Assembly: GCA_034687125.1 (NCBI GenBank)
Contig: JAQGBZ010000076.1
Span: 1 to 64,000, forward strand
Length of the DNA stretch: 64,000 bases
Source: Neelides folsomi
Taxonomy: Eukaryota; Arthropoda; Collembola; Neelipleona; Neelidae
Direction: 5' to 3'
Shown: in pieces, positions 2,411-47,427 of the stretch
How positions within the stretch are numbered: the first letter of the stretch is position 1
Layout of the letters: every line of letters starts with the position of its first letter
Program-made: the position numbers and the translations under genes
Notes under the pieces: model-generated
Told to the model about the DNA's origin: nothing
Databases searched by the model: none
What the model saw: the letters and a program-made list of their open reading frames with translations, nothing else

Positions 2411-5400
2411 ATGGATAATTTACAAATCTATCAGTCAAGCTTAAATGGTAAGTTATTTTAAGAATTATTTTTTATACCTATATCCTACAATATTCAATAT
2501 ATTGTTTTATATAAATATAATAAATTATAAGCAATAAAATTAATTATTAATTTAATATTAATAATCTGAATGTATACATTGTTAAAGGGCTTCAAATGTG
2601 GTTTCCAACAATTCTTTATGGATTTATTGGAAGTTTACCGATGTATATTCTCGCATGGTAAGTTTTATTATTTTTTATTTAATTTCAATAAACATGTGCT
2701 ATAAATACTTATCCTATATATGCATTTTATCTAATTAAATCATATTTTTTCAATATTACACAGGTATAACATGGATCAAGTAAGCGATCGCTTCCGCGCT
2801 ACTTATTCAGACACTGCTGACACATTTGACTTCATTGTCGGTATGTTTTATTGCATATTAAGTCAATAATGTTCTAAGCTCATATCATTGTTCAGTAATT
2901 TTTAAATGTTTTAATAGGTTATTAATCAGGAAATTGGAAAAATATCTTACACACCTAGATAATATATATCATACCACATTGATACATCATTCTACATATT
3001 ATATTGTATCACTATAGCTCTTCCTTCTTTTGCATGATTGGCAGGAGGGATTTATCAATAACAGTAGAAAACGGAAAGTGCGTGTTTGTTGAAAAGTTGA
3101 AAACTAGAAATTCAGCACAAACAGCAACAAAGAACCACAAATGCCAAAAATTAAAAGATAGAATTTAATTCTATTTACATTATAAGAAGGAAGAAGTGTC
3201 ATAAAAATGATTTCTTGATTTTCCATGTTTCATTATTACCATTATAATTCCGGAACAAGTTATTGAGAACGAGTTCATTAGATAATGCTAAATAACAATA
3301 AGAGCAAAAGGGTAACATTATTAAATATGCGTAAGGATTTCTTACTATGTAGGAATCTTTAAAAGCATATGTGTAGATACAGATAGAAGTATATATGTAT
3401 GTAAAGTACATGCAAGATATGTAGAGTACATGTAATTTTGCTGATAAAACTACCATTTATGTTTCAAAGGTTTCACAAATTGTAAGATTTTATGATTTAA
3501 TAATATGATTTATGATCATTTGATTTTAATAACCACCTAATAAAATCCCAAGTTCAAAATTAATTAAATCAAGCCGTTCGAGTTTAATGGAATTTTTTTA
3601 GTAATGGAATAATTGCTGCCGTTGGTATAAAGTCATAACTATCTGTATGTTTGTATGTATGTATTCGGCATTCGGTAATGAATTTGAGATTTACTTTCAA
3701 TTGTCAATGAACTTTTAAAACATAAGTTGGACTATAAATTATGTTTATTAGAGCAATTTGCTGCACATTTCTTCTCATGGTGTGAATTGAAGGTGAACAA
3801 ATTGTAGCTATTGGTATAAAGATGATTGGGATGAGAAAGGACGCTGAAAGGTTTAGCCTTAACCAGACCGTGAAGTTTAATTGCCCCGCATTGCAAGGAA
3901 GCCAAAAATTCATGTAAATCAACGATATTAAGAATTTACAGTAAAAGTAAAAGTTCAACACACAAATGCATATTAATGGAAATTTAATGAGTTCAACTTT
4001 CCATCAAGAATTACTGAATTTTGTTTATTCATTTTATGATGCAAGTTTTATTTGTATGAGTTATTTTATAATAGTTTTAAATTCCAAGTGCATAATGGTC
4101 AAGATTTCCTTGACTTAATCCTTAACATTTCTTAAAACTAAAAACGAATCCATTACTCATAATTATATCCTGGATGACAAAGTGATTGTCAGATTATTTG
4201 TGATATAAAGAATAAGTATTCGACTGATAGATAGAGTGCATTCAGGTGTACCTATGTATAACCTAGGTGTAATCTCTACTTAATCTGAAGTGTGTATGAT
4301 ACTTCAAACAATAATTTTAATTGAGTTAAAGTTCTAAGGTAGTTTTAAATTTAATAATTAATTAGTTGGAGCTGGATCTTCAGGAGCCGTCGTTGCAAAT
4401 CGTCTTTCAAGAAACCATAAAGTTCTATTACTTGAAGCTGGCGGAGAACCAAATCCTTTTTCATCTGTTCCTGGTCTTTCTTTCCTTATGCTCAATTATC
4501 CTCAAGTGGATTGGATGCATAAAACGGTCCCTCAGAAACATTGTTGTGGAGCTCTTCCCAATAAAGTGTGTTTCTTGACTATTCTTTATTAATCTGCTAC
4601 TTCATATTGTCTAAAATATTAATAAACAAATCTTTAATAAACTTTGACTATGCATTTTAGCAATCTGGATGGTCGGCTGGTAAAGGTCTTGGAGGAACTT
4701 CCAACTTGAATTTCCTCATTCACTTGCGAGGGCATCGAAAAGACTTTGATTATTGGGCTAATTTGACTGGAGATCCCTCATGGAGTTACGAAGGGCTACT
4801 TCCTTATTTCAAAAGTGTGGAAAATTATCAAGGAGAATTTGATTCTGGTGAGACTAGGTTTATACGATATAATCGGTGTCATTAATTAGCTATATGAAGA
4901 ATTGTCTTACAACTACAACTGCGCTGGTAGATAAAGTGAACCGCTAGAAAGGCTCACACATTAACAATATCTACGTTTAATTTAAATTATTTAATAGAAT
5001 TATTCGATAGTCCTTTAAAATTTAAAAAAATCAGACGCATTTCGGAAGTATCCTACAATTACAATATTATCTACCGTAAATAGTAATTCAAAAATTGCAA
5101 TTAAAAATATTTTTTAGATTTATTGCACGGACATAAGGGAGATATGCCGCTATCTCTCCCGGACTATAAAGGAATGTCTGAATTGTTTGTCCAAGCAGCT
5201 GAAGAACTCGGATATCCAAGAGTGGATCTCAACGGAAATTATTCAGAAGGTGAGAAAAGCTTTAAAACAAAATAAATCTATCAAAAATTGTTCATAAAAC
5301 ACAACTCATTTTGAAAATACGGTCATCGCATCCATAATCTATATCTTATTTTGAAATTACCTATAGGATTTTCACCAGTCTTTAATCCTGTTAAAAATGG

Positions 5401-7560
5401 GAGAAGGCAGGGAACGTTTAGATCCTTCATTGAACCAGTGAGGGGAAATCCAAACTTGATTATTTATAAGTTTTCCCAAGTTAATAAGGTTAGAAAACTT
5501 AAGCATTTACTATAAGTTTTTATGAAGGAATTTTAATACTGCATACTATTAATTAAGGGAAAAGACGAATAAATGAGACGTTTTTTAAATTTAGATTTTG
5601 ATGAGCGGACCTCAAAATGAAGCCTATGGAGTTGAATACGAAAGACATGGAGTTAAGAAATTTGCTTATGCCAAGAAAGAAGTGATTGTCTCCGCCGGTT
5701 CAATCAATTCACCTAAACTTTTAATGCTTTCTGGAATTGGTCCACGAGAACATTTAGAATCTTTAAATGTAAAAAAATGAATTAAAACCGCCTATTTTAA
5801 CTATTATATTTTTACACCAAAATAATAAATAGATTCCGGTCAAATCTGAACTTCCTGTGGGAAAAAACCTTCAAGATCACATTTCAATTTACTTTGGACC
5901 TTTCTTTGTAAATGAGCCGATCACGATGTTATTGGACCGAGACCTCACAGCCACTTCCTTTGTTGAGTTTACACGGAAGGGAACGGGACCTTTGACTTCT
6001 TCAGGATGTCACGCCGCTGGGTTCTTTTCCTCCTCCAAAGCCAAGGAAGTCGGGGAAGGGGATTGGCCAGATATTCAATTCATTCTGCTCGGAACGGCGG
6101 TGTACGAGAAAATGGCCAAGGATTTTTCCCATGCTTTTCACAGTGAGTGGTCTTGGGATTTACAACAATTCCTGTTAACTTAGTAAATATTAATAACTTA
6201 ATAAGGAGAATCATTATGGGTATGAGTTAACTTCGAGTTATACCTTATCACTAAAAATTAAAGCTAATACAATATACATATGAAAACATATTTGGTACGT
6301 ATGCAGATATACAGGTATTATCACATACATGGTTAAATTGTAAAGAATTCCTTAATAACTTTCATTGCTTGTTCGTATACATTGGTTCAATTTACTACAA
6401 TATAATTGTGATTACCTTTGAATATCACTCGAAACTTATCACAATTGCTCTCTAACATGGTTTTATTCTTTATAAAGTTGATGAGAACATAATGCAACGA
6501 TATTTGAGACACGCGAAGGGAAAGGACAGCTTTCAAATCATTACGTCGCTTGCAAGGTGAGTTTAGTTTTTATTGCATTTATAATATAATCTTGAGTACT
6601 CCTAAGTTAAAAAATGGGTTTATGATGTTTTTACATTATAATGATTTATAAGAATCTGGACATAGCATACACTTGTAAAATTGAAGCTTAGATTACTGAT
6701 TCAGTATATCATGTTTTAAAGGTTAATATGCCATTAGAGGTTTTATTTTTTAAAGGTTTATTTAAATAATTTTGAGTGATATTATAACGTAGATGAAATG
6801 TATTTGATTTAAAATGCTTCATATTCCAGGCCATTATCAAGAGGTGACATTCGATTAGAAAGTGCAAATCCCAACGCACCTCTCCTAATTGATCCAAATT
6901 ACTTAGCCGAACCTTCAGATGTTCAAGTTTTAATTGAAGGTATATGTTAATTGACTATCTGTCATTATAATTTTATTCAATATTTAATAACCTTTAATAT
7001 TCCTTTTTTGGATAGTTATCAATTTAGCATTACCTCGCACAAATAATTAATATTGACATTTCTGCATTACTAAAAGGTTTGAGAAAAGCTATCGAGCTTG
7101 TTGAGAACACTACAACATTCCAGAAATATGGTGGGAAATTTACCAATGAACCTTTCCCTGGTTGTGAAGATGTTCCCTTTTTGTCTGATGCCTATCTTGA
7201 ATGTTACATTCGCCAATATTCAATCACACTCCATCACATTGTGGGTAGTTGCTCAATGGGGAAGAAACACTCCAAAGACGCTGTGGTGGATCCTGAACTC
7301 AAAGTCATTGGAACAAAACGGTTAAGAGTTATCGATGCTTCCATAATGCCAAAAGTTCCAATTAGCAATACGAATGCAGCGGTAATTTGAAAAATAAATA
7401 TTTTTTATAAAATTACTTAATACATTAATTATGGTGAGAAAGTGTGCCAATTTAAATATTTTTTGTTTAGTGCATTACGATTGGAGAAAAGGGAGCTCAT
7501 TTGGTGATGAAAACTTGGGAAAATTCAATTGAAAATGAAAATAATGAAATTATTCGCTAG
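2411..7560 (+). CDS. GMC oxidoreductase 1 (glucose dehydrogenase-like flavoenzyme), 630 aa, 13 exons
   Basis: Exons read from the sequence: 2411-2447, 2588-2657, 2764-2840, 4366-4565, 4661-4847, 5118-5249, 5367-5488, 5595-5768, 5833-6142, 6478-6556, 6830-6939, 7077-7381, 7471-7560. All junctions are GT/AG, the phases agree, and the frame gives 630 residues ending in TAG. Residues ~16-36 form a hydrophobic segment (signal peptide or anchor). The FAD-binding loop follows ([18 protein letters not shown]), then the GMC signature around [16 protein letters not shown], a second signature [23 protein letters not shown], and the C-terminal catalytic His region [10 protein letters not shown] with the NTNA pair. 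By family knowledge this is an FAD-dependent alcohol or sugar oxidoreductase. The substrate cannot be told. Intron 3 is unusually long (1.5 kb). Closest relative in the window is GMC 3 at 44.6-47.4 kb. Confidence 0.9.
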
Positions 7561-25372: not shown

Positions 25373-26059
25373 ATCAATTTGTCAAATATTTATCAAATTC
25401 ATCTATTATTTTGATTCTTTGATACCTATATTTTTTAACTACTCCCTGGGCAGGAAACAGAAAGGAAAATCGTTTGGTTTGGGCTTGCATTTCTTTTCCT
25501 TGCTGCGCGCAGATTTTCCATTCTCTTTCTTGCCCAGGGAGTATATTGTATAAACACTACTAATATATATATGTATCTTGGTTAGATTGGTTGAGCTATC
25601 ATTAAATTACCACTTTGCATTTGAATGGACACAATAAAAGTATGTACTTTTATAATAAATATTCTTTCATTATTATGCAAAATGCCTTCCTTAGTTGAAT
25701 CTGTAATTAAACTGAAAAATATTTTGAAAAATATTTTATTAATGGTGTAATTATTTTAGGAGCCATAAATTTCTTAATGCTGTTATAAAAGTGTAATGTT
25801 TGTAATCTTTTAAATTTTTTAATGCTTTGATTCCCATTATTCCTAACTTTAAGGAACAATAATATTATTTGTCTTAATAGTATGATAGTAATCAGGATCA
25901 GGATGAATAAACAATTATAAATATTCAACCTCACACATGCTTGATAATTACATAGCAGTTAGCAGATAAGTTCTTAATACAATTAATCAGATTGAAAAAG
26001 CATAAACTATATATGGTGGTAGTATAATATACATACATTGTTTAAGTCATATACCTACC
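25373..26059. other. Intergenic between P450 A and B
   Basis: No gene seen. It contains the hairpin element at 25442-25541. The 75-codon minus frame at 25707-25934 looks like chance. Confidence 0.4.
25442..25541. mobile_element. 100-bp TA-flanked MITE
   Basis: The left terminus CTCCCTGGGCAGGAAACAG and the right terminus (reverse complement CTCCCTGGGCAAGAAAGAG) are ~29 bp inverted repeats, flanked by TA at 25440-25441 and 25542-25543. The CTCCCT start resembles Stowaway/mariner ends. It lies ~70 bp after the P450 A stop codon. Confidence 0.65.
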
Positions 26060-26104
26060 ATACTCTAAACGCCCATTGAGATAAATTCAAGGGCAAACCT
26101 CGTT
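26060..26104 (+). promoter_or_regulatory. Upstream block of P450 B shared with P450 A
   Basis: ATACTCTAAACGCC and ATAAATTCAAGGGCAAACCT nearly repeat 22901-22936. No TATA box as good as that of gene A follows; TTTTTATTTAACTC at ~26126-26139 is a weak candidate. Confidence 0.4.
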
Positions 26105-26294
26105 GTGTGAAAAAATTGAAGTGAATTTTTTATTTAACTCTCGCACCTTTGTTGCGTGAGGAACGAATTTGGAATCTTTTAAGTAAATACATTAAAGCCT
26201 AACTTTTGTTTAATTAATTTAAATAAAAGAATATTAATTATTTAAAATTTTAAGTGAAATAATATTAAAATACAAGTTTGAAAAATAATTAAAA

Positions 26295-28452
26295 ATGTTC
26301 GAATTATTGGCATATATTTTGTTTACGTTGTTCATTGGATTATTAATTATAATATTCATCTATGGACGATCAACCTATGGAATGTTGGAAGAAATGAATA
26401 TTCCTATTATTAAACCATATTTGTTATTTGGCTCAAGACCCATGATGCACAAAATGTTAATCCATGAAGAAGACCAACGTGACACAAAAAGACTCGGGAA
26501 AATTTGGGGCGTGAGTGGTTTTTAACTTATTGTTAATTAGAATAAATAAGAATAAACTTGAAATATTTTTAAATACAATGACATGAATAGTTTATACTAA
26601 TTTGGAACAATTGTGAATCTCATTTTAAACCATAATTAACACGCGTTTTTCTTCTTTAGATGTACGAAGGGAAAACTCCGTTTGTTTTTGTCTCAGACAT
26701 CGAACTTGTTAAACTCATCTTCATCAAGGATTTTGACCACTTCCATGATAAAAGATCTTTTGATATCAAAATTCCTCTTATTAATGAAATGCTGGATATG
26801 CTTCCGGGTAATGAAATGATCCAACCAACATTGTTTATTTAAATTCAAAGATAACTTTAAAAGACAATTTCCATATTTTACCTACCTAAATTATTAAACA
26901 ATATATTTTCATAAGTAAATACCATGTGGCTATTGTAGGTACATTACTTAAATAAATAGATTATACATTTTTTATAAAATTGATTAATTTATTCAAGGGG
27001 AAAAATGGAAAGCTATTAGAAATTCATTGACTCCAACTTTTACAACGGGTGATTTTTATTATGCATTAAAAAGATTATAATGTTATGAGCATTAAATTAT
27101 AGAATTTTTTAAATATTTAAAAAACAGGTAAAATTAAACTGATGAGCAAATTGATCTTTGATGCTTGCAAAGATTCTGCTGATTATTTACATGAAGAATT
27201 GAAAGAAAGCAATGAAAAAACGTTTAATTATAAAGAGTAATGGAATATTTATTTATTTATTTTAAAAATTTATATTTGTATTAAATACAATTTTGCATAT
27301 TTTATTTCAATAGAGAAAGATTAAGAAATTAAGATTTGATAATTTAATTGATTTTAGCTTTTATGTTGGACTGACTGCTGATGTTATTGCACGAACTGTT
27401 TTTGCAATTAAAGTTGACTCAATGAGAGATCCGGACAATCAATTTCTTAAAAACATCAATAAGTTGAATTTTGATCAAGGAGATGAAATGAATTTTTTTC
27501 TAACAGTTGCAAGTAATAACTTAAAACAATACTAATATTAAATCCCATCATATAATTAATTGATAATTGGGATAATTTAATGTTTAAAGTAATAAAAATA
27601 TTAATGATAAAAAAACTTATTTATGAAGTGACATTTCCCATCATGATGGATTGGATGCCCGGCATGATGGATCCAAAAACTATTGAATATTGGGGAGATA
27701 TTCTGAACAGAATTGTGAAAGAACGCCAGGATAGCGGCGTTGTCCAAAATGACTTTGTCGACACGGTGGTTGAACTCCTCAAAGAACTCGATTCACCCGA
27801 ATTCAAAAGGCTTGGAATTGTTCGCGAATCCATTCTCGCCCAATCGTTATTTTTCCTTATTGCTGGATTTGAAACGACCGCCAACACCCTCACGCTTCTT
27901 TCTTACCATTTAGCTAAAGATGAAAAGATTCAGAACAAAGTGTTAGAAGAAGTTGACAAGTTTTATGCAAAGCATTCAGAAACGACTTATTCGAATTTGG
28001 CAGAACTTCCTTATTTAAATGCCTGCATTCATGAAACTCTCCGAATGTATCCGCCGCTCATTCGTGTAGAGAGAAATTGCATGAAAGATTGGAGCGATCC
28101 CGAAGGACGGCTTTCAATTAAAAAAGGAATCACAGTCCAAGTTCCTGTTTATACAATTCACCACGATCCTGAATATTATCCAGATCCATATAAATTCAAC
28201 CCAGAAAGATTCATGCCCGAAAACAAAGATCAACTGACGCCTTATACGTTTTTGACTTTTGGATTGGGCCCTCACAACTGCATTGGAAATCGATTCGCTT
28301 TTGAAGTCCTCAAAATGGCAATGGCGAACATTTTGAGAGATTTTAAATTCCAGCCTACGGACGAAACCAAATTGAAATTTATGAAAGGAAGGATTTTCTT
28401 AACGAAGCATGAAGTTTTTAAAGGAAATATTGTTAAAAGAAATAAAATTTAA
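26295..28452 (+). CDS. Cytochrome P450 B (near clan CYP3), 500 aa, six exons
   Basis: Exons 26295-26510, 26660-26807, 26998-27048, 27128-27236, 27358-27512 and 27629-28452, with the same phases as gene A. Long exon stretches are almost identical to A (for example the exon 1 end and most of exon 6), so this is a recent tandem duplicate. Motifs: ER anchor, LIAGFETTANTLT, ETLRMYPP, FNPERFMPE and the heme loop FGLGPHNCIGNRF, with the usual Gly after Cys retained and His in place of Arg. Catalytic residues look intact, so an active ER monooxygenase is likely; the substrate is unknown. Confidence 0.92.
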
Positions 28453-29298
28453 AACAATAATTTGTATAATTCTGTCATTTTTATGTGTAGGTATGTGATA
28501 TTAAAGTTTCTTTGTTAATTTGATAAGGAATGTAAAAGTTAAAACTAAAAGCTCTTATCTGTTACAAGTGTCCATTGTGTGAATTAATTTTTATCCATGT
28601 AACGCTTTTATTAACAGATTTATTTGATCGTATTGAGCAAGAGTAAGAATGAATGTCATTTAAAATAAGGCTCAATTATTGTTTTACAAAATAAACAAGT
28701 TTGTCATTATTGATAAAAATAATTAAGATAAAAATACACGAATTTCATTTTATAAACTTGAGCATTTTTAGTTGAAATAATCTTTTATGATTTATCTTAT
28801 TACTATACATGTGATTGCCACGTGCTAATTGTTATATACATTATTTTATATGATATATAAGGTACTAACATTGTTATAACATTGTACATAAATACACTAC
28901 TTAGGATTATACAAAGTTTTAGACACAGTGCAGTGTAATTAAATACATAATATTCACACCTACTGTGCTCTATGCTACGTACTATTATTAACAATACACT
29001 TATATATTCATATTGTCATTAATCTCATTAAAGTTGCATATTAATGTTATGTATATTATATTAAAAATAAGAGTATGAATTGCATAAAATACAGACATAT
29101 GTTATTCATCTAATCACTATCATACACCCAAAGGAGTTCCACGACGAAGTAATTGCAAAAAATGAAGGTCACAGAAAGATTCCTATTAAAGAGTGAAACT
29201 CCCTTTATGAAAATAACATTGAATTAATGAGCATAAAATCAAGCTTAATTTTACATGTCCAACCAAATATATGCGGATACATACATAGCATACTTATT
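28453..29298. other. Intergenic between P450 B and C
   Basis: AT-rich; no gene seen. A short less AT-rich patch at ~29125-29220 has no recognised motif. Confidence 0.4.
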
Positions 29299-29342
29299 TA
29301 TAAACCCTAATTTATTCAAATTCTTCTCATTCGAGTTCAGTT
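29299..29342 (+). promoter_or_regulatory. Candidate TATA and initiator of P450 C
   Basis: TATAAA at 29299-29304 and TTCAGTT at 29336-29342 precede the ATG at 29433. Spacing is ~40 bp, longer than ideal. The A/B-shared ACTCTAAACGCC block is not seen here, suggesting different regulation. Confidence 0.3.
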
Positions 29343-29432
29343 GAGTGTGGAACTCGCAAGAACAAAATTTCAATTCATTTACTTTTATTAACTTGATTTT
29401 TCAATTTTTTTCTTTATTTTTGAAAACTCAAA

Positions 29433-31671
29433 ATGATTTTTCTACTAATAGCATATGGGTTGATTACGTTTTTAATTGGTTTGATTACCGTAATGGTTAT
29501 TTACGGACGATGGTATTATGGAGAACTTGAAAAGTTGAATATTCCCGTTATTAAACCAAGTTTTTTATTCGGATCCAGACCAAATATGTACAAAAAGATT
29601 GTTCACGAGGAAGATTCACAATTGACAAATAAACTTGGAACTATTTGGGGTGTAAGTGATAATTTATATCATATCAATATTATAACAACATATTCTAATT
29701 TCTAAATAAATTTTAATTTTAATTAATTTATGGCCAATTTGAATTTTCACAAGATGTTAATTCTTTTCCAATACATTGTTTTAGATGTACGAAGGAAGAG
29801 AGCCCTTTGTTTTTGTGAGTGATTTAGATCTCATTCGACTCATTTTCATTAAGGATTTTGATCACTTTCATGATAAAAGAAGCTTTGACTTAAAAATGCC
29901 TCTTATAAATGAAATGTTGGATATGCAACCAGGTAAAGCGAAATCGTTACTGATATTTTACGATTATCAATCTAAGACATATTTTATATCATAATACGTA
30001 TTATTCGAATTTTACATTATAAGAGTACTAACATGTTGAACCTAAAATATTTTAGGAGATAAATGGAAAGCTTTAAGGAATGCACTAACTCCAACATTTA
30101 CAACAGGTTGAATTTTTAATATAATTTTTTTTATCATACTCGTATTAATAATATCATTATTCTTATGATTATTTTACATTTTACTATGTTTTATAGGAAA
30201 AATCAAATACATGAGCCAAATGATATCAGAAGCTTGTCAAAACACAGTTCAGTTTTTAAGGGAAGAAACAATGGAAGAGGGAGGCAAAAGTTTTGATTTT
30301 AAAAGGTAAGCATAAAATTACAAATTAATACAGGGTGTGTCTAAAGTCGTTTCCGATTTCTAATCTTACTATCTAGAAATCCGATTCCGATTTCTAGATA
30401 GTAAGATTAGAACGACTTTAGACACACCCTGTATATTAATTATTAATTATATTCATTTATTGAATCAATGGTTTTACAAGTATGTATATCTAATTAACTC
30501 ATAATTAATCAAAAATTAGATAACATTATATCATAATATTTATAAAATTTATATAAATATAATACTTATAAGTACTTAAATCATACATATTAATATGTGG
30601 TTTATTAAACAGATTTTACATTGGATTGACTGCCGATTCAATTTCTCGTGCGGTTTTTGCAACAAAGTTCAATGCACTTCGAGATCCTAATAATATTTTT
30701 TTTAAAAACATTGAAAAATTGAATTTTGACAATGGAGATGAAATGAACTTCATGTTTACATTTGTTTGTAAGTCATAGTTAGTAGTGAATTGTAAAAAAT
30801 TATAAATTGAATTAAAAGTTGTAATTGGAAATACATAAATTACGTTTCAGCCACGTTTCCAATTTTTATGGATTTTTTCCCTGGAATAATGGCACCAGAA
30901 GTTGTCGAATTTTGGAGACAAATTTTGGAAAAAATTGTGAAAGAACGACAAGAGAGTGGAATTCCGCATGGCGACTTTGTTGACACGATGGTTGAACTCC
31001 TCAAAGAAGTTAATTCCCCAGAATTCGAAAAATTAGGAATTTCCCGGACCACTATTCTTTCACAATCGCTCCTTTTCTTATTCGCTGGTTATGACACAAC
31101 AGCGATCACTCTAACAATGTTATCATACAATTTGGCAACCAATCCAGACGTTCAAGAAAGGCTTTTAAGCGAAATTGACAATTTTTATGAAGAACATTCC
31201 GAAGCAAATTATTCAAACATTGGAGAAATGCCATTTTTGCACGCGTGTGTTAACGAAACTTTGCGTTTGTGCGCTCCGCTTATTCGGCTTGAGAGGAAAT
31301 GTATGAAAGATTGGAAAGATCCACAAGGACGTTTGGCAATTAAGAAAGGGATGGTTGTTCAAGTTCCAGTTTGGTCAATTCATTTAAATCCTCAATATTA
31401 CCCGGATCCGCTTAAATTCAATCCTGAGCGATTTTTACCCGAAAACAAGGACAAATTGACTCCTTATACTTTTCTCTCATTTGGAGTTGGCCCACACAAT
31501 TGCATTGGGAATCGGTTTGCCCTGGAAGTTGTCAAATTGTCAATGGCAAGCATTTTGAAAGAATTTGAATTCAAAGCAACTGAAGAAACAAAGTTGAAAT
31601 TTCGAACTGGAAGAACTTTCCTGGTTTTGCCTGAACCCATCAAGGGGAAAATTGTAAGACGTAATCATTAA
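29433..31671 (+). CDS. Cytochrome P450 C (near clan CYP3), 500 aa, six exons
   Basis: Exons 29433-29651, 29785-29932, 30056-30106, 30197-30305, 30613-30767 and 30851-31671, again the same layout. It is more diverged from A and B than they are from each other, so it branched earlier. Motifs: N-terminal anchor, LFAGYDTTAITLT (I-helix with Asp rather than Glu before the Thr pair), ETLRLCAPL (ExxR), FNPERFLPE, and the heme loop FGVGPHNCIGNRF with His for the usual Arg. Expected to be an ER monooxygenase; the substrate is unknown. A hairpin MITE sits in intron 4. Confidence 0.92.
30331..30431. mobile_element. 101-bp near-perfect hairpin MITE in intron 4 of P450 C
   Basis: CAGGGTGTGTCTAAAGTCGT at the left is matched exactly by ACGACTTTAGACACACCCTG at the right, and the interior (TCTAATCTTACTATCTAGAA) also pairs, so nearly the whole element folds on itself. 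TA flanks both ends. The CAGGGTG terminus is typical of Tc1/mariner-family elements. Confidence 0.75.
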
Positions 31672-34022: not shown

Positions 34023-34502
34023 TTAAACCAAATCATTCATCATTTTAATACCATCATAAATATTAATTAAGATTTGTAAGTTATCTTCGGTCATAAATGG
34101 AAGTTTGAAGTTTGTAAAATCTCTATTTGAAGATTTATCTTTGTCTCCCAAGATCAACACAGCATTATATAATAAAGCTGCTACAACGATGACAAGAAAC
34201 GCGGTCCAAATACAATAAAGAATCGTGGTCCAATCAATTTTAAATCCAGATAGTGCATTTAATTGCCCTCCGCCAATTTCATTCAAAATATTTGGTTTGA
34301 ATGTTGTTGTTTGATTAATTCTATCCAAAAGATTGAAATAACCAAATGTTCTGCTCCCATTTGTTGGAATGTCGAGGTCGAGCGATTTTTTGATAAATGT
34401 ATTTTTCACAATTTGCTCGTTTGGAGGGAAATGTTTAGATTCCGTAAAAGAAGTAATAAATAATAAATAAAATGAAAAATATATAAAAATAATTTTAACC
34501 AT
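34023..34502 (-). CDS. Hypothetical secreted/single-pass membrane protein, 159 aa
   Basis: An intact intronless frame. The N-terminus MVKIIFIYFSFYLLFITSF is a clear signal peptide. An ectodomain of ~70 residues carries one NQT and one NGS sequon. A strong membrane helix lies at ~residues 93-120 (TILYCIWTAFLVIVVAALLY), followed by a ~35-residue cytosolic tail. That is type I topology. No domain or family is recognised. Its hydrophobic signals are well placed, so it is likelier to be real than most small frames here. Confidence 0.5.
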   Translation of the reverse strand: MVKIIFIYFSFYLLFITSFTESKHFPPNEQIVKNTFIKKSLDLDIPTNGSRTFGYFNLLDRINQTTTFKPNILNEIGGGQLNALSGFKIDWTTILYCIWTAFLVIVVAALLYNAVLILGDKDKSSNRDFTNFKLPFMTEDNLQILINIYDGIKMMNDLV

Positions 34503-35274
34503 TATTTTACTTTTGATTTAAAACAAACCCAATTTAAACTAGCTTGGAAAAAAACAAATATTTTTCTATTTAAGACACTTTACCGTCTTTGCATGCACAC
34601 TTGAATTTAAATTACAAATAAGGTTGTTTTCCATAATTTAGTAATTATAAAAGTTCAGTTTATTTGGCTGTCAAAAAGTAGAACAAAATATTAAAAGGGC
34701 GATTATTTCCTTCATTTGTCAAACTTAAACAAATGTTAACATTGACCTTAAAACATCCATTTAACATGTGTACCTTTGTATTGTGTACCTCCACATGTGT
34801 TTTAAAACATGTTTTATTACCACTGAATCTTTTGTCTTTAAAAATTAGTTTACTATAAAATAAATATGTAAGTAATAAAAAAATTTCAAATTGATTTTGT
34901 ATTTGCATTATATATTTATTCATTTTCAACAATTTGTTAAAATAACAATAAAGATCAACAAATGAAATTATCAACAATTAAAAGTTAACATCACATTTCA
35001 TACTTTAAAATTATTATTTAAAAAAGGTAATTAAAGTTATTATCACCACAATCTTTTCAACATCCTTTCCATTTTATTTTAATAATTTGAACAATTTATA
35101 TAAAAAATCAATTTACATTTCAATTTTAATCCGATTATAATTAATTGAATAACTTTTCAATCTTACACTCATCATCAGTCCAAACAAAAGTTAATAAAAT
35201 AACAACGAGAAATTAACAATAAAACAAAAGATCAACCAGACTTAACTCACATAATTTATCTAAATAAAACGATT
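34503..35274. other. AT-rich intergenic region
   Basis: No supportable gene. The 105-codon minus frame at 34660-34977 has no domain. The part next to 35275 is the 3' UTR of the large GMC 2 gene. Confidence 0.4.
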
Positions 35275-38200
35275 TCAAGCGCTCTTATCTTTACCAGTAC
35301 TTTTTGTATCATCAGTACTTTTTGTTTTACTAGCAGTTTTATCACTAGCTTTAACACTAGCTTTATTACTAGTTTTAACACTAGGAATATTGCTAGCATT
35401 ATTATTTGGAGTTTCATCACCTCTTCCGGTCCGTTTGCTCAACATAGGAAATGAATAATAATTAGGAAATGCTGCAGGGTTTTGCATTGCATGCGAAAAC
35501 ATCCCCATGTTATTTTCTTCCCCCTTGGCATTCATATGATGGATTTTCCGATTACTATTTGTTTGAATTTCCCCAGAATCCATCATTTCATATGGCGGCA
35601 ACGAACCAGAAAATTGATCTGGGTGAATTGGAATATGTGGCATGTTGGGCATGAAAATCTCCGAATGCGTGAGAGGATTGAATTTGAAAACATTGTCTTC
35701 GGGAATGGCCGGGTCGTACATTTCTCTCATCATTGGATGGTGTGGACCGTGAATAAATTGTGAATTAATTGGTGGTCCCGGCGGAGGGTTAAGAACCGAA
35801 CTCGGTGGAGGAACTTCAACAATTGGGGAAGTATTTTGACTTTGGATTTCCATTGCACTCACAGGACTCGACGGAGTGGTCAATGGAGCTAATCCCAAAG
35901 TCAAAGGAGGTTCTGTTGGTTTGGTTGGCGAATCCTCAATAGTTTTAATTCTTTCATTTGCTACCTCGTTTAATTTATTCTCCGCTGCGTGTTTGGCCAT
36001 GATGTCTCCAACAATTTGTTTTAATGTCGGTTTATCGAGTTTAATAATGGCAGAATTTTGCTGACTTTCGCTTTTATCTTCATCATTTTTCTCTTCATCG
36101 ACTCTTTTAACGCCGAATTCCGTATGTTTGTAATTTCGCGGTTTGGGGCCACGGGATCTTCCATGTGATCTTCCTCTGCTGCGGCTCCTTGACCTGTTTT
36201 TCCTCTTATTTTTAAATCTCGGTTTCCTCAATGGTTTCCTCCGATGGTGACGAATAACATTAACTCTTGGAGGTCTTGCACTGATCATCTGCATCGGACT
36301 GTCAAAAATAGGCGGAAGTAATGAAGCACTCGAGGCGACGTTTTCTGCAGCACTTTGTAATTGAGTTTGCAAATTGTGTAATTCAAGGTTCGCTTGCATT
36401 TGCTTCATGGCTTTTATTTTATTCAGCATTGCTTTCTTCTTCCTTGGGTTGTTCCCAACCATCCGTTGCAACGTGTTTTTAATTGTTGAGGATCGATCAA
36501 AGAATCCAGAATTGTAAAGGTCTCTGAATGATTGAGACATTTTAGTCGGGCCGTTGGCTGTGGCATAATATTGGCGAACTGCGGGGAAATTGTTCACACT
36601 GCTAATTCCATTGAAGCCATAATACCCTTGGAAAGGATTGCTGAAGCTTGAAGAAGGGCGCGAGTAATAGGAAGACGTTGTACTAGTGGCGGGGAAATTG
36701 TAAGTTTGGGGTTGTTGGAATTGTGGTTGTTGATATTGTGGCTGTTGAGGTTGTTGAAATTGCTGAGGATGTTTTTGGTGATATTGTTGAAGTTTGTGAT
36801 ATTGAGATTGTTTTTGAAATTGAGGTTTGTAATGTTGAGAGGATTGGGATTGAGCTGTGTATTTTTGCTGGAGTTGTCGCAATTCTTCATCGACCGGAGT
36901 GTAAGATGGAAGTTCGTGTTTGAAGTTTGAAAAAGGGAAATTGGCATTATATTGATATTGGTTTAAATGGCGATGAGGAGAAGTTTGCGGATGGCGAGGG
37001 GTTTGAGGAGGCAAACGCTTCTGTGTTGGCGATGGCTGTCGATGAGATCCAAACTGGTCGGGCTGCCTTTGAGGAGCTAAATGCTGCGGTGAACGATTAG
37101 GAGATTGTGGCTGCCGTTGAGGAGCTAATTGCTGCGGAGGGCGCCGTGGTGCTAATTGCTGCGGAGGTCTTTGGGCTAATTGTTGAGGTTGGCGTCCTTG
37201 TGGTGGTGGAGCTCCGTATGAATTTTTTGGTCCTTGTGGTGGTGGAGCTCCATAAGAGTTTGTTGGCCGTTGTGGTGGAGGAGCTCCATACGAATTTGTT
37301 GGCCCTTGAGGAGGCAAATGATGCGGTTGCTGAGGCTTTTGTTGAGATGGGTGTGTTTGTTGTGGTGGAGGTCCGTAAGGTTGCGGAGGGCCCTGCTCTT
37401 GGGGATGATGTGGAGGAGCTTGTGAAGGAGATGCATATGATGATGGCGGACCTTCTTGGGCTTGTTGAGGTTGAGGAGGAGATCCATAAGATTGTGGAGG
37501 ACCCTGAGGAGCTAATTGCTGCGGCTGTGGTGGAGATTGAGGAGCTTGATGAGGTTGTGGAGGAGATGCATATGATTGTGGTTGAGCTTGTGGAGCTAAT
37601 TGTTGAGGTTGTGGTGGTGGTGGATGTTGTGGTCCTTGGATTTGAATTTGAATATTAACTGGGTTAGATGGTTCTCGAGGAGACTGTTGGGGCTGTGGAG
37701 GTGGCTGCTGTTGTGGAGAAGATGCATATGACTGGGGTGGTCCTTGTGGAGCAAATTGTTGGGGTTGGGGTGGAGGCGGAGGAGGAGGAGATCCATAAGA
37801 TTGAGGCTGTGGAGCTTGAGGAGCCAATTGCTGTGGTTGTTGAGGTGGAGGTTGTGGTAAAGGTGCGTTGTATTGTGGTGGTGGTGGACCTTGGGGTTGT
37901 TGTTGCGGTTGTTGCTGTGGTTGTTGTGGTTGTTCTTGTGGCTGTCTTTGTGGCTCTAATTGTTGAGGAGGAGCGGATCCATACCCCTGTGGTTGTTGCT
38001 GAGGTTGAGGAGGATGTGGAGGATGTTGTGGAGGACTGTATCCTTGAGGTGGTTGTTGAGGACCTAAAGGCTGCGGTTGTTGTGGTGGGCCTAAAGCATG
38101 CGGAGAGGATCCATATCCTTGTGGAGGTTGTTGCTGTTGTGGATCCTGAGGTGGAAATGGATGTTCGAACTGCGATGCCAATTCATTATGATGGGAGAAT

Positions 38201-41200
38201 TGTTGTTGAGTGATTGGCTGAGCGTCTGGTGGAATTGGAAGCATTTGGAGCCCAATTTGATGTTGAACCATCAACTGATGTTGAGGATCCAATTGATTGG
38301 TCAACTGGGAAGTAAATGGAGATTGGTGAATTGGTTCTTGTGGTGTAGCTTGCGGGGGCATTTCATTAGGAACAATCATATGCTGAGCCGGTTGCATCAT
38401 ATGAGGAGGGAAATGGGCCGGAGGCATCATGTGAACTTCCGGTTGTTGTTGTTGCTGGAAATTCTCCCTTGGTCTTTGGATCATTTGAATTGTGTGCGGA
38501 AGTGGCTTTACAGCATTTGACTCTGGTGTGTGGGATTGGGATGCAAAGGCCAAAAGAGCTGCTTTGTGTGCGGCCACGTGGTCAGGATCGTTTGAGAATG
38601 TTTGTTCCTCTTCCATCCCGCCAATTTCGTTTAATTTGTTAATGCTAAAACCGGAATTTCTAAGTCCGTTGTGATAACGTTCTTTGGAATCCTCTTCATC
38701 CGAGATTTGATTTTTCCCTTCTTCAAATCCAAAGAAGGAAGTTGAGCCTGGCGGCATTGCTCTAAATGGTGGCAATTCATTTGGAGGGTCTTGTAAGAAA
38801 TTGAACATTTGTTCTTCAGGACTTGGCCTTTTCACTTTGGGTCGAACTCTTGGTCCGGATTCGTCAATTTCTTCAGGTGAGTCTGTTGGAGTTTTTTCTG
38901 TTCTTAAAGGCTCTCCAATGTTGTTTTTATTATTTTGGAATTTCTCTCCTTCTTCACCTTCACTAAAGACGTAAAAGGAAGCTCGGACTTTTTGATCATC
39001 CTCAGCTTCATCTTTGATTCGGTTTGTCACAAATTCCTGAATACTTTGATACAAATTGGATAAATTGTCCTTCCCACGTAGATCTTTAATATTCATAAAA
39101 TCTTCCGGATTCAAACTGTTTTCATTATCAATTGATCCATGTGACGCCATGGCTGAAGCCAAAACAGCGCGCATTTTTGAAAGAAGGGAATTTTCCGAAG
39201 CTGCTGGTTGATGATCCTCGTGATCGATTTTATCATGATGATGGATTAAATTAAGGGCTGATGGCGTGTGGTGGTGAGGTCGACGTGGATGAGGATGGAA
39301 ATGTTTTGGTCGGTGGCGGTGCCAAGTTTTGAGGATCATGTCAGCTCCCTTTTCTGCGATCATAATTACTGCTCCTTGTGGTGAGGAAGAGACGATGGTT
39401 GGCATGATTGAGGCATCGATAACTCTCAGACTTTGTGTTCCAATCACACGAAGGTGAGAATCGACGACGGCATGGGCAGAGTGGGGATGGCCCATTGCAC
39501 ATGTACCGGCAGGATGGTTCAAAGAAATGGTCAAATGGCGAATGTAACATTCCCAATAGTCGTGGCTGCGGAATTCGAGCTTTTGGCAAGGTGGGAAAGG
39601 TTTCCCATGAAGGCGAGAATGAAGTTTGGCAAATCCGGTAGTGTTTTCTGCAATGTCAATACTCCGCTTGACAGCTACAAAACAAATACAATTTTTAGGG
39701 ACAAGGACAAAATATCTAATCAATGAACTCATTATCTAATAATTTAATTTGTGTTCTATAAATTGCACGACTTTAAAATATTTTTTAATTTTAGTTAATT
39801 TTGAATTACCTTCATGCAAAAGGTGGACATCAAATTCGCTCTCAAAATATTTTGGATCGATGATTGGTTTATCAGCCGGGTAAGGAGAAGAAAGTCGAAC
39901 TTCTCCTCTTGAATATGGCCGAGTCACAGCAGCATGAATGAAGAAAGCGTCTTTCCCTCTTGTGTGTTTGTAATACCCGAGTGCAATCCCTTTCTTTACA
40001 TTCTTCTTATCGTACATGTCTTTAGGGAAGGATCGATGGGGAGACTCGGTCCGAAGCGTTAATTGAATGTCTGTCCAGAAGTAAGCGGGTTTTTTCAAAA
40101 CAACATGAGGAAGTGTGACAATTGAAGGATGGAAATAAGTGTCTTCAGCTGCAGTGTCATTTCCATTGGCTTGAGATTTCCCGTCTTGACGAGGACGAAG
40201 TTCCATTTCCAATGTGCCGATGTCGGCCCTTTGGTTTGTCGGATCTTCTTCTAAGGGGTTGAGATCCTCGGCTGTAGTTTCAAAATCTGGTTCGTCTCCT
40301 TCAGGTGTTTCGCCGTTTCTTTTGGCAAAATAATGGTTGAGGGCGTGGTTCTGAGCATGGTGGGAGGTCAAGAGAGCAATGGCATTAGCCCCTGTGGAGG
40401 TCAAAGCTCCTTTGCCTACTGAGAATGCGGAATAAGCCAAGGCGGCGGGGCTAACGTCCCGGTCAAAAAGGAAGGATTTCCCTTTCTTGACAAAGAACGG
40501 TCCTATTAAAGTTCCCACGTGGTCTTGAAGATTTTGTCCAACTGGCAAGTCTTGCAAAACTGGAATCTGAATAAATTATTAAAGTCAATATGATTTAATA
40601 AATATATGATTTATTCAGTTATTTAATTAAAGTGTTATTTCATAAATTATGTTTTAGTTTTACTATTTTAATAATATTTTAAAGTCAAATGAATAAGTTT
40701 TTAAAAATTATTATTTATATTAATGTACTCAAATCATTTAGCTATTAGATTTTTCGGCTGCACCCATTCTACTTAAGAAAGAAAAATTTAAAGTAATAAT
40801 TATAATGTTAAAAATGTTAAATCTTTAATTTTGAAACCAAAAAGTAATGTGTCAAACAGGATGAACAAGAAATGTGAGAAAGTTGAACTTTTTTCACTTT
40901 CATTGCAAATAGATTGTAATGTGACTTATATGATTTCATTTAAACATTACAACTTGATTTGCCTCCATAATGAAAATTAGTGGTTTGTTAAAATAAGCTG
41001 GTTGTTCGAGTTCGCGAATAAACAATTTTAAAAATGTTTATTATCATATGCAATTCATATTAAAATAATAATTATGCATTTAAATGCATTAGATATAAAA
41101 TAATATGAATAGTATTTCATCCAACTACTGGTAATTTCTAATAACTATTCTGATTATTTATTTGCCCAAGTTAACTACACAACTGAATATTAATAGTTGT

Positions 41201-43179
41201 TCTATGATATAATCAATTTTAAATAAATAAATATGCGGATATTTGGAATATTACCGAAAGTGGAATGAGATAACGAGCTGGGCCAATTCCTGACAACATC
41301 AAGAGCTTCGGGGATTCGATTGCTCCTGCAGAAATAACGATTTCTTTTTTCGCAAATGCAACTTTCTTGATTCCGTGTCTTTCGTAAACAACTCCATAAG
41401 CTCTGTGATTTGGTCCCTTCATCAAGATCTAAATAATTTTTAAACACCATAAATATTATAAATGCATATAAGGAGTTTAATTAACTTAGCAATTAACAGT
41501 TAACACCATTTCAAGCTGTGTTTAACACAAATTAATCAAAACTAAAAACTATTAAATACAGTAAAAATCAAACCTTTGTTACAGTTGAATATTTAAAAAT
41601 GCTGAGATTTGGATGAGTGCTATCAAAAACTCGATTTTTTGATTTGTCCAAATATGCCGAATAAGTTGATTGTCTTTTACCCCATTGGATTGGTGAATAA
41701 ACGGTGTCAAAACCTATTAAGAAATGAAGTAATTTTGTATTTGATTAAAATATTTGCAAAATTAATTTTTATAATAAAGCGTCGTAATTTTGCATTATTA
41801 ACTTCTTTTGCAACTGTTCCACTTGATTAATTAATAATTATTTAAAATAAAATATCTGATTTGGATTTATTGATTTAGTTAAAATGTCCATTTTACCTTG
41901 TTTGTACTTTCCATTCAGATCAAAATGCCCAAATCCGAGTTCTTTTCCTCCAAAGATCCATTGTCTTGAGAATCCAACATAGTCAGGTATTTCAACTCTG
42001 AGGGGTCCTCTCATCCCATGCACTTTCGCTATATGAACAGGAATTGATGGATTGAAAATTCTCCTTTTACTTTCAGTTGAAATGACCAATGGAAAGAACT
42101 CGTTATTTTCCCTTTCAAACTTATCTTTGACAAGATTGAGCTTACAACTTTAATTATTATACCTACACTATATAACTAACAATAACGATACAATATGTAA
42201 ATAGGTAGGTTTTTCCACATCACTTAATATCCAATTTCTATTAATGCGGGTCTGGTCAAGTCATGACTTATAATTACCATTTAATAAATAATCAAGTTAT
42301 TTATTAAATTATAATTAAATGTTGATCATGTAATTTCGTTCACGTGATTATCTTTTATACTAAACATTTGTAATTGGTAAGAAAAGAAATATGATTTTTT
42401 ATCAGTTGATAAAATCACTAATTTACTTGTTATTGTTAATATTAAATAAACTTAAATTTTCTTACGTGAAAATCCCGCAAGACCTCGAAAATCTTCACTT
42501 CGTTTGAAGAATCTTAACAATTTTGCATAAGACCATGAAGGGTCTTGTGTTAACAAAGCCCAATGGTCGTAATCTTTTGGATGTCCACGGAGATAAATCA
42601 TTGAATCCAAATTGGAAGTTCCTCCAAGTCCTCGCCCGGCGCTCAAACTTGATTGCTAAAAAACATTTTACAATCAACACCAACGTTAAAATTCAATTAT
42701 ACTTACATATTATATTCTGTAGTTTATAGTAGTACGTATTATAAATAACTACTTACGACGTACACAACTAATAAAATTGATTTAAATATTTTTTATAAAA
42801 TGATTATATTTTAAAGTCTCACATGGTGGTTGAGAGCTAAACATGATTTCTTCTGACTTGTAGTTTTATAGTTCCAATCCACTTGCGGGTGTCGAACAAA
42901 CTTTTCCGACAGTCTCGGGATTGACTGATAGGGATGCGGTTCACCGCCCGACTCCAAAAGCAAAACTTGGTATTTGGCCGACAGCCGCCGGGCCACGACG
43001 CTCCCCGCTGTCCCGCCCCCAACAACGATAAAGTCAAAATACTGTTTTTTCCCAAATGGGAACTGTGACTTGATTTTGTCTTCCGTGCGGTCCAAATGCT
43101 CCCACATGGAAATGAGGAGGGAGACGGAGGCCAAAGCTCCGAAGAGCAGCCTCCGAAATATCAAAGTGGACAACACCAT
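35275..43179 (-). CDS. GMC oxidoreductase 2 fused to a ~1350-residue Pro/Gln-rich tail, 2081 aa
   Basis: Seven minus-strand exons, all in phase: 42823-43179, 42466-42655, 41897-42124, 41574-41713, 41255-41428, 39810-40566, 35275-39674. Residues ~1-733 form a GMC flavoenzyme: an N-terminal hydrophobic anchor or signal, FAD loop [52 protein letters not shown], and catalytic His in LNHPAGTCAMG. The usual NTNAPT is replaced by SSPQGAV, so the second catalytic position is Gln. Exon 6 carries a ~80-residue acidic insertion absent from its two paralogues. The last exon continues without a stop through a His-rich linker (HRHRPKHFHPHPRRPHHH), an acidic region, a long PQ tail with SYGSPP/SYAS/NSYGAPPPQ and QQLAPQ units, an Arg/Ser block and a KASDKTASKT C-terminus. 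The exon 3 acceptor is the least certain. ATG chosen at 43179. Confidence 0.88.
36690..38470 (-). repeat. Low-complexity repeat region coding the PQ tail
   Basis: This part of the last exon of GMC 2 consists of irregular tandem copies of short units coding PQQLAPQ, PPQSYGSP and NSYGAPPPQ. Three successive NSYGAPPPQ units lie at ~37205-37300. The composition leaves long open frames on the plus strand as artefacts. Confidence 0.8.
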
Positions 43180-44553: not shown

Positions 44554-47427
44554 TTATAAAGGAAGCGGACTTTGCCATTTTGCTAAAAGATTGTTTTCGT
44601 TCAAACTCCCAGTACTCCCATTATCCCTCTTGAATTTTCTGACCCATCCATCCCAATTGTCCTCATCATTTGTTGTCCCTTTTTCCCAATCCTTTAAAAT
44701 CATGTCTGCTCCCTTTTCACCAATCATGATCGTTGGCATATTCGTATTTCCCACAGGGACTGTTGGCATAACTGAAGCGTCCACAACCCTCAGGCCTTTG
44801 ACCCCCATGACCCTCAACATTGGGTCAACCACTGCTGAAGGATCTCCATATCTTCCCATCTTACAACTTCCCACAATGTGATGAAGCGTGATTGAATATT
44901 GGCGGGCAAAACATTCCCAGTACAAATCAGTCCTAAATGGAATATCTTCACAACCCGGGAATTTCTCATCCGTAAATCGTCCATTAACATCCCGGAATGA
45001 GGTCGAATTTTCTACTAATTTAACCGCCATTTTCATTCCTTCTACCATGACACGAACATCATGGGGATTTTGGAAATATTTGGGATCGATTAAATGCGAA
45101 ACGTAAGGATCTTTGGAAGCAAGTTTGATATCTCCGCGTTGTTTAGGCCGAGCAACTGAAGTGATAATGGTGAAGGAATCTTTGTAGAGGGAATGTTTGT
45201 AATATTTTTCTAGGATTTCTGGCTTGGCGTGGAAGCCTTTGGCAAAGTCTTTGGCAAAATTTGTGTAAGTGGCACCAGCCATGAGGATCATTTGAATATC
45301 GGGCCAATTTTGTTCTCCAGCCAATGTGGCCAAAGGAGTTGAGACAAAGCCCATGGCCGTTGTTCCGGAGACTGCGAAAGGCCCAGTGCCTTCGGCTTGC
45401 CATTTCAAATACTCGTTAAAGTTTAAGTCGCGGTCGACCAGGGCGGTGATTGGGGCGTCGACGAAAAACGGACCCAAATAAACGGACAAATGATCTTGGA
45501 GATTTTCTCCAACTCCTGGTAAGTCAACTTTAACTGGAATCTGTTTATATTGATAAAATAAATTTTAATATAATAATTAACCTTGCTGGTATTGTAAAAA
45601 CTATTTTAAAATTTGTATTTTTTTAAAATAATAATTACATTTAAAGATTCCAAATGACTTCGTGGCCCAATGCCAGAAAGCATTAAAATTTTGGGGGTTT
45701 GAATGGCTCCTGCTGAAACGATAACTTCTTTGCTTGCATAAGCAATTTTTCTTTCTCCATGTCGATCATATTCGACTCCGATCACTTCACTTTTATCTTC
45801 ATCTTTATAAATAAGCTGTAAATAAAAGTTTACTCTAATTAATGGATTTTTATAACAAAATTAAGTAATTTTGATTAACGCACATTAACACTTATACAAA
45901 AGTAAATGCCCATACTATTAGACTTATCTTATTAATTAAATGTGTATTTAAATAAATGGGCTGAATTACAATTTTAATTAAAAGTAACTTAAAAATTGAT
46001 TTGATTATATAATTAAAATAGATTTTTACATACGAATATATTTATAGGTCGAAAATATTTATACATAATCCAATATGTTATTCATATTACCTTATTCACA
46101 TGTGAAAACTTGTAAATGTACAAATTCTGCCTCGAATACCGAATTGGCTTAATATAAGCCTTGAATGTTCCTGCTCGCCTACCGTTTTTTATGGGATATT
46201 TAATGTGGTCGAAACCTGCAGAGCAAAATATTCATTAAGTCCCACAGTTTCAATCTTGCGATATTGGATAATTTAAATTCAAAAATCAGGATTTACGAAT
46301 GTTTATAAAAAACGAAATATTTTAATACCAGTAGTATATTTTCCATTGAGATCAACTTGTGGAAAACCCATCTCTCCGCCTGCTTTGATGAATATGTTGT
46401 TTAATTTTTCCATTGCTTTTGGACCAGAAATTTCTTCAATGTTGATTTCTCCACCTTTGCCGTGTAATCCTGTCAATGGTTCATTCAATTAATTAAGTAT
46501 GTCCTTGGAACATTTACTTAAATAGCATAGTTTAATAATAAAATTTTCATTTTGTATAAATTATATTCTCCTATAATAATAAATTTTTAATGTATAAAAA
46601 TTAAAATTTTCAATAAAAATTATATTGGATTAGAACATTTATCATGGGTTTATAAAAATGTCATTTTTAAATTTTTAATCACCATCTTTAACCCAATTTG
46701 GCGAAGCGTAGTTTTCGCATTTCTTGAAATATTCCAACACATTGTCATATTTCCAGGAATCATCTCCAGTTAAAGAAGCCCAATGGTCAAAGTCTGTCGG
46801 AGATCCTCTGGAAGTAATGAGGAAATTTGTGTTACTTGTTCCTCCAAGTGATTTTCCTTGTGACCATCCCGATTGTCGATTGGGTAAAGCCAAGCAAACG
46901 TCTTTTTGTGGAACTGTCTTGTGGATCCAGTCAATTTCCGGATAATCGAGGAGGAAAAAGGAGAAGATTGGAATTGCACTAAAAGGATGCGGCTCACCGC
47001 CAGCTTCTAACAACAACACTTTGTACTTTTGAGAAAGTCTGTTAGCCACAACAGCCCCAGCCGAACCTGCTCCAACTATAATTAAATAATTATTAGGATT
47101 CTAAATTTGAATATTAATTATGGTAAAATGTTAGAATTTTTAACTGTAATGATATCTAACCAGAATTTAAGAAAATATTTTTATAAATGATGTTAATTTT
47201 TAAAACTTACCGACAATAAAGTCAAAATTTGTTTCAATGTCTTGGGTAGATTTGATCCGATCAGCCAAAAGGTCAAGTTGATGCCAACTTGTAATGTAAA
47301 TTGACATTGAAGCGACAATGCCAAAGAGGAGATTTATAAACCACAGGGACGGGTTCGAGGTCGGATCGTAAGATCCGTCCCGACGTTGGGCCAAACGGCC
47401 CAAAAGCCGGCTTCTTAATAGGAACAT
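44554..47427 (-). CDS. GMC oxidoreductase 3 (glucose dehydrogenase-like), 679 aa, six exons
   Basis: Minus-strand exons 47211-47427, 46683-47075, 46329-46469, 46091-46215, 45639-45815 and 44554-45540 give 679 residues in consistent phase. A hydrophobic segment (SLWFINLLFGIVASMSIYI) is followed by the FAD loop [59 protein letters not shown], catalytic HHIVGSCKMG and GNTNMPTIMIGEKGAD with the catalytic Asn intact. The C-terminus has a ~45-residue hydrophilic tail ending QSPLPL. It should be an FAD-dependent oxidoreductase in the secretory route. Closest to GMC 1 by motif; it shares several intron positions with it but has fused the last five exons. Confidence 0.93.

Follow-up and report, generated by a model that had tools for sequence, protein, structure and literature searches.

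We describe here a gene, called B, from a 64,000-nucleotide window of the springtail Neelides folsomi (positions 1 to 64,000 of the forward strand of contig JAQGBZ010000076.1, assembly GCA_034687125.1; the window below always means this whole stretch). In B, a flavoenzyme domain of the GMC family appears to continue in frame, within one exon, into a tail of 1,348 residues. Judged by sequence, such GMC-tail fusions characterise a group of paralogues and not B alone, since B and four sister genes, all of them tailed, form one clade with support 100/99. The second residue of the catalytic pair is Ser in B, and we tentatively favour the view that the protein is an extracellular scaffold tethered to the membrane, whose GMC domain is weakly active or dead.

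Gene B and its tail

Gene B, modelled by hand, is located on the minus strand (43179-35275) and has seven exons with GT-AG borders, which together encode 2,081 residues without an internal stop (Table 1). The Pfam domains found in it are GMC_oxred_N (PF00732; residues 48-380, 133.9 bits against a cut-off of 23) and GMC_oxred_C (PF05199; residues 580-722, 128 bits against a cut-off of 24.6), and the top matches in a PDB sequence search are GMC-type enzymes, including aryl-alcohol oxidase (AAO). By its sequence B is thus assigned to the GMC oxidoreductase family: the domains, the flavin adenine dinucleotide (FAD) motif and the first catalytic His are all present. The FAD motif is GGGTAG (GxGxxG), with the following Glu also kept. 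The GMC part contains 4 Cys. Compared with paralogues A and C, encoded in the same window, this domain has insertions in exons 2-3 (5 and 27 columns) and in exon 6.

Exon 7 follows the acceptor tttgttttgtag and ends with the TGA stop at 35277-35275; its open frame, from stop to stop, comprises 1,486 codons. Both LNHPAGTCAMG and AEKGADMIL are encoded in this exon, AEKGADMIL being followed by 1,351 residues and the final Trp of the GMC domain by 1,348. An earlier reading of the DNA made without database searches (the sequence-only reading) had placed a last exon with these C-terminal GMC motifs at 39674-35275 on the minus strand and had described an in-frame fusion within it; the coordinates, both motifs and the stop-free continuation are confirmed here. 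The unusual length that it ascribed to the product holds as well: insect GMC members are about 600-700 aa long, and paralogue A (679 aa) agrees with this, while B is far longer.

The tail looks coding, because it has no in-frame stops, shows a frame-specific synonymous excess and lacks intron-like composition. In particular, the sense strand of the tail stretch has no stop in frame but 42 and 86 in its two other frames, and the antisense frames have 48, 95 and 53. The GC content by codon position is 0.60/0.44/0.30. Of 553 codon changes of a single base between repeat copies of the tail, read in frame, 266 are synonymous, against an expected share of 0.23; in the other two sense frames the counts are 68 of 641 and 140 of 643, against expected shares of 0.18 and 0.30, respectively. 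The windows compared were picked by DNA identity and share copies, being not independent. A comparable excess is observed among the repeat copies of the tailed paralogues L021, L023 and L030 (see below). The overall GC content of the tail is 0.45, with 0.32 in the lowest 150-bp window, versus 0.19-0.23 in the six introns of the same gene. These composition tests, together with the presence of tails in four sister genes, argue against an annotation effect.

The His-rich, acidic, Pro/Gln-SYG, Arg/Ser and Lys/Ser/Thr regions listed in the sequence-only reading could all be located in the tail, and its repetitive, Tyr-containing character is borne out by 37 Tyr residues and 11 [GS]Y[GAS] motifs (shuffled mean 0.9, maximum 5 in 1,000 shuffles). 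The tail matches no Pfam family at E values of up to 1 and nothing in the PDB sequence search. As there is no Pfam match, no chitin-binding domain has been found in the tail, and in particular the Rebers-Riddiford domain was not encountered at the same threshold. The NSYGAP repeats presumably resemble the SYGAP motif of resilin; still, the tail differs from resilin in being Pro/Gln-rich rather than Gly-rich, in having only three NSYGAP units and in the chitin-binding domain that was not found.

Two candidate relatives of the tail were rejected. The C-terminal end of paralogue A (SENSLL, compared with NENNLL at the tail start) scores 30, while 500 shuffles have a mean of 25.5 and reach 43. A small open reading frame (ORF) at 34023-34517 scores 38, with 200 shuffles averaging 31.8 and reaching at most 53. 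This 164-residue ORF (34026-34517), on the minus strand just downstream of gene B, encodes two hydrophobic segments and has no Pfam match.

Tailed paralogues and their phylogeny

The assembly itself (75.1 Mb, 840 contigs) was searched for further members of the family. The B domain matched at least 89 exon-sized places, and the GMC_oxred_C profile at least 42, both being lower bounds; 25 regions around matches outside the window were examined. For 23 genes (A, B and C from the window and 20 others) an in-frame reading of the C-terminus was obtained. Six of these have tails; in the remaining 17 the conserved motif is followed by no more than 47 residues. The contigs and tail lengths of the tailed genes are given in Table 1.

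The untailed set used below comprises 22 genes, that is, these 17 and L031, L035, L042, L043 and L047; L050, which matched too little, was dropped. L031 appears to end four residues past the domain, beyond an intron. The C-termini of the other four added genes are only partly resolved and were counted as untailed; within 2.5 kb downstream of them there is no ORF of at least 100 residues, except for a 163-residue ORF at L047, whose link to the gene is uncertain.

The tails differ in make-up: that of B is rich in Pro/Gln, L021 in Gln, L023 in Glu/Arg (with RERVREESKS repeats), L022 in Glu/Ser/Arg/Tyr, and L030 in Thr. There is no Cys among the 4,211 residues of the six tails, all of which except that of L024p (0.07) have a negative overall FoldIndex. 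Pfam gives one weak match (E = 0.33) for the five tails other than that of B.

A maximum-likelihood tree was constructed from 27 genes and 569 columns (L048, one of the 22 untailed genes, is not in the tree), the rows beyond A, B and C being exon pieces anchored to A and not finished gene models. The clade of B comprises L021, L022, L023 and L024p, while the sixth tailed gene, L030, groups with the untailed L025 (98/95). The simplest reading of this topology would be one origin of the tail in the clade of B and another in L030. The tail needs two changes on this tree, and a single clade of all six tailed genes is barely rejected (p-AU 0.0475, for a group chosen once the tree was known).

Alignable homology among the tails of the five clade members was not detected: in none of the 10 pairs did the score go beyond local shuffles, which reached it in 11-100 of 100 cases. 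Among words of five different letters, shared ones were found only between L021 and L022 (EMARN and GHELS), with 1 of 200 shuffles giving an equal result. This is a weak sign that the tails of these two genes, neighbours on one contig, may be related. In the search for a donor gene within the genome, the tail of B, a 160-residue piece and the tails of L022 and L023 as queries retrieved only themselves, apart from weak matches with E = 0.37 and 0.03, while the tails of L021, L024p and L030 were not among the queries. No relatives of exon 7 were found in viral contigs.

Short hydrophobic C-termini resembling glycosylphosphatidylinositol (GPI) anchor signals were seen by eye in L045 (two genes, with C-termini near 2900 and 8500) and in L048 (near 4975).

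On the mitochondrial contig C742 of the same assembly, a 401-base stretch read by eye comprises the end of cox1, a trnL(UUR)-like sequence with a TTTAAGA anticodon loop and the start of cox2, although ARAGORN, run with the bacterial code, detected no tRNA there. A trnL(UUR) gene at this location is a marker of Pancrustacea, which is compatible with a springtail but does not prove one.

The catalytic pair

GMC enzymes use a His-His or a His-Asn pair, with the first catalytic His conserved throughout the family (PMC3541233). In B the first residue is retained as His669, while the second is Ser713, and the alignments with AAO and with paralogues A and C are gapless there (Table 1). With Ser713, B lacks the His-His or His-Asn pair of a competent GMC enzyme. 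In NPEO-DH, a His/Asn GMC enzyme, the Asn507Ala mutant has no activity and shows no flavin reduction, while His465Ala retains about 1/20 of kcat (PMC3565318).

The pair is H/S in B, N/N in L022, N/P in L023, D/G in both L024p and L030, and H/N in L021. An intact His/Asn pair is thus observed in 1 of 6 tailed and 15 of 22 untailed genes (Fisher p = 0.057, kinship ignored), and the state of the pair has changed at least five times on the 27-gene tree. The untailed genes without an intact pair are L034, L035, L046, L049, L042, L043 and L025; they have Glu, Lys, Leu or Asp in place of His, and Ser, Ile or Gly in place of Asn, the latter being kept in L043. L034, L035, L046 and L049 form one clade (100/100).

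Outside the pair, 101 columns are at least 90% uniform among 14 untailed genes with intact pairs, and B matches 89 of them. Its 12 changes include those of conserved Asn residues, N156D and N618Q (numbering of A); N618 also differs in L021 and L022. In our own, unaligned reading, these other two Asn changes would correspond to Asn90 and Asn509 of NPEO-DH, where Asn90Ala and Asn509Ala have little effect (PMC3565318).

Table 1. Coordinates of gene B, its parts and its paralogues (positions in the window unless another contig is named; tail lengths are counted after the last Trp of the domain).
Feature	Position	Strand	Remarks
Exon 1	42823..43179	-	ATG at 43179, GT donor; hydrophobic N-terminal segment and first FAD motif
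Hydrophobic segment, residues 11-26	43102..43149	-	Preceded by FRR; putative signal-anchor
Exon 2	42466..42655	-	GT-AG, in phase
Exon 3	41897..42124	-	GT-AG, in phase; acceptor less certain than any other junction modelled
Exon 4	41574..41713	-	GT-AG, in phase
Exon 5	41255..41428	-	GT-AG, in phase
Exon 6	39810..40566	-	Carries 13- and 72-column insertions not in paralogues A, C
Exon 7	35275..39674	-	End of GMC_oxred_C, entire tail and stop; single open frame, 4,400 b
His669 codon	39514..39516	-	First of catalytic pair; aligned with His of AAO, A and C
Ser713 codon	39382..39384	-	Second pair position; Asn in A, C; His in AAO
Tail, residues 734-2081	35278..39321	-	1,348 aa; no Cys; FoldIndex <0 in 87% of windows
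His-rich tail start	39208..39321	-	
Acidic part, residues 831-1030	38431..39030	-	36 Asp/Glu
Pro/Gln-rich part	36955..38157	-	[GS]Y[GAS] repeats
Three [TK]NSYGAP repeats	37207..37299	-	36-bp tandem unit
Arg/Ser-rich basic stretch	36127..36240	-	
Lys/Ser/Thr-rich C-terminal end	35278..35382	-	
Paralogue A	44554..47427	-	679 aa; IGEKGADMI motif followed by 47 residues; intact His/Asn pair
Paralogue C	4366..7560	+	568 aa (model without first exon); 17 residues after motif; His/Asn intact
L021	C374:6000-15999		Tail 1,280
L022	C374:16000-25999		Tail 386
L023	C216		Tail 806
L024p	C216 (L024)		Tail 138
L030	C819		Tail 253

Possible role of the tailed proteins

With respect to the features of a type II membrane protein, B has a hydrophobic stretch that follows the basic FRR and precedes the FAD motif; its best 19-residue hydropathy is 1.76 (residues 5-23). 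The pattern FG..A[ST] followed by W in this segment is common to six paralogues, B, A, L021, L022, L023 and L024p. Since the segment is conserved and basic residues precede it, its sequence suggests a signal-anchor, with the GMC domain and the tail being extracellular. The sequence-only reading had supposed secretion, and the segment is compatible with secretion or anchoring.

Because the active site is doubtful, a tethered scaffold seems the likeliest role of B, though we hold this preference tentatively. Through the signal-anchor, both the GMC fold and the tail would be extracellular. The tail, with its succession of His-rich, acidic, Pro/Gln (with Tyr in SYG and NSYGAP), basic Arg/Ser and Lys/Ser/Thr parts, would act as a flexible polymer, which other enzymes would crosslink into the apical matrix or cuticle, or which would join it by binding. 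The GMC fold would serve as a folded, possibly FAD-holding, base at the membrane, being no longer an efficient alcohol oxidase. A scaffold or matrix role of the tail as such is plausible. In other animals, GLD is essential for exoskeleton metabolism in Drosophila, according to PMC1891103, and GMC domains are present in oyster shell proteins, according to PMC10543319.

On this view, the paralogues would have diverged in their function as matrix polymers, and catalysis would have decayed in the majority. It is possible but on balance doubtful that a GMC lineage has turned into membrane-rooted matrix polymers, in which the flavin fold is the base, the catalytic pair decays and each member has its own giant, Cys-free, disordered tail, so that one obsolete enzyme would underlie several different materials. 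GMC enzymes are usually regarded as metabolic oxidases that vary little in size; a clade with disordered tails of up to 1,348 residues and repeated loss of the pair would mean that enzymes have been recruited as structural or scaffold proteins. The five paralogues provide a ready set for studying the evolution of disordered tails, and gene counts of the GMC family may exaggerate how many working oxidases there are.

Several observations weigh against the scaffold. L021 has both a 1,280-residue tail and an intact His/Asn pair, and thus the tail and the loss of catalysis are separable. The association between them is weak, given the above p = 0.057 with kinship ignored, and 7 of 22 untailed genes also lack an intact pair. 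Some flavin chemistry is possible in B, because the FAD motif, the first His and most of the conserved positions (89/101) are retained. Moreover, a cleaved signal peptide would be another reading of the hydrophobic segment, the Arg/Ser- and Lys/Ser-rich parts of the tail would suit a nuclear protein too, and the gene is known here from its DNA alone.

Among the alternatives, a largely neutral tail, although unlikely, fares best. According to it, a stop codon was lost in the clade's ancestor, and the slippage-prone disordered extensions have drifted with little function. The near absence of alignable sequence in the 10 tail pairs and the tenfold variation in length agree with drift, as does the loss of catalytic residues in several genes, which looks like relaxed constraint. 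However, all five clade genes keep an open frame of 138-1,348 codons without Cys, and the repeat copies, which are not independent, show the synonymous excess in B, L021 and L023.

The sequence-only reading suggested a self-crosslinking enzyme; in such a model an active oxidase, either secreted or anchored, would produce H2O2 or a reactive carbonyl beside its own Tyr/Gln/Lys-rich tail, which would be crosslinked where it is deposited. The FAD motif and first His of B, the 37 Tyr and 11 [GS]Y[GAS] motifs in its tail and the full pair of L021 are consistent with such a mechanism. It is nevertheless weakened by Ser713 in B and by the shortage of intact pairs among tailed genes: four of the five others (L022, L023, L024p and L030) have lost one or both residues, and the corresponding Asn-to-Ala mutant of NPEO-DH is inactive (PMC3565318). 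In addition, the tail of L024p has no Tyr, and that of L030 has four. For B, self-crosslinking of the tail by an active GMC domain is thus rather improbable; it may fit L021 better.

An intracellular or nuclear low-complexity protein, whose Pro/Gln, SYG, Arg/Ser and Lys/Ser/Thr tail would form condensates or bind RNA and whose N-terminus is no export signal, is improbable. The Arg/Ser-rich stretch and the SYG/SYA repeats, features that we take to be like those of FUS-type proteins, point in this direction, while the hydrophobic segment before the FAD motif, common to six paralogues, speaks against it, and so do the GPI-like ends of three other GMC genes (by eye), which indicate an extracellular setting. 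An artefact, namely two genes, or a GMC transcript that ends or splices near 39300 with a separate transcript for the Pro/Gln part, would be compatible with a gene read from DNA only, yet is very improbable given the absence of a stop between domain and tail, the composition unlike that of introns, the four sister genes of the same layout and the synonymous excess in the same frame.

As for known systems, B resembles insect GMC enzymes (GLD, GOX and the flotillin-2 intron cluster; Iida et al. 2007, PMC1891103) in both Pfam domains, the FAD motif and the clustering of paralogues, while the long tail, the Ser at the second catalytic position and the domain insertions set it apart. The GMC family has 21 members in Apis and 16 in Drosophila (PMC1847477), and its size here is of the same order. 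Hi-like of Manduca sexta is likewise a GMC paralogue with a C-terminal extension, which is suggested to alter its activity (PMC10307781), the difference being that its authors suggest an effect on substrate binding. C-terminal additions to the GMC fold are also known in fungal class III cellobiose dehydrogenase, where they match no known domain, and in alcohol oxidase, where they lie at subunit interfaces as extended loops; a tail of more than 1,000 residues is not mentioned in the accessible portion of that source (PMC6509819). In the open-licence PMC literature, no papers on springtails and GMC oxidoreductases were found, and no tailed arthropod GMC protein was recognised by title or start of abstract among the matches listed, which is no proof of its being unpublished. 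The accessible portion of a paper on GMC expansion in spiders (PMC10354039) does not mention tails.

Finally, cytochrome P450 genes are located near GMC genes: three on the plus strand of the window (24485-31668), and also on contig C374 (L022:1543-2367, minus strand). The P450 and GMC neighbourhood may be a shared metabolic cluster.

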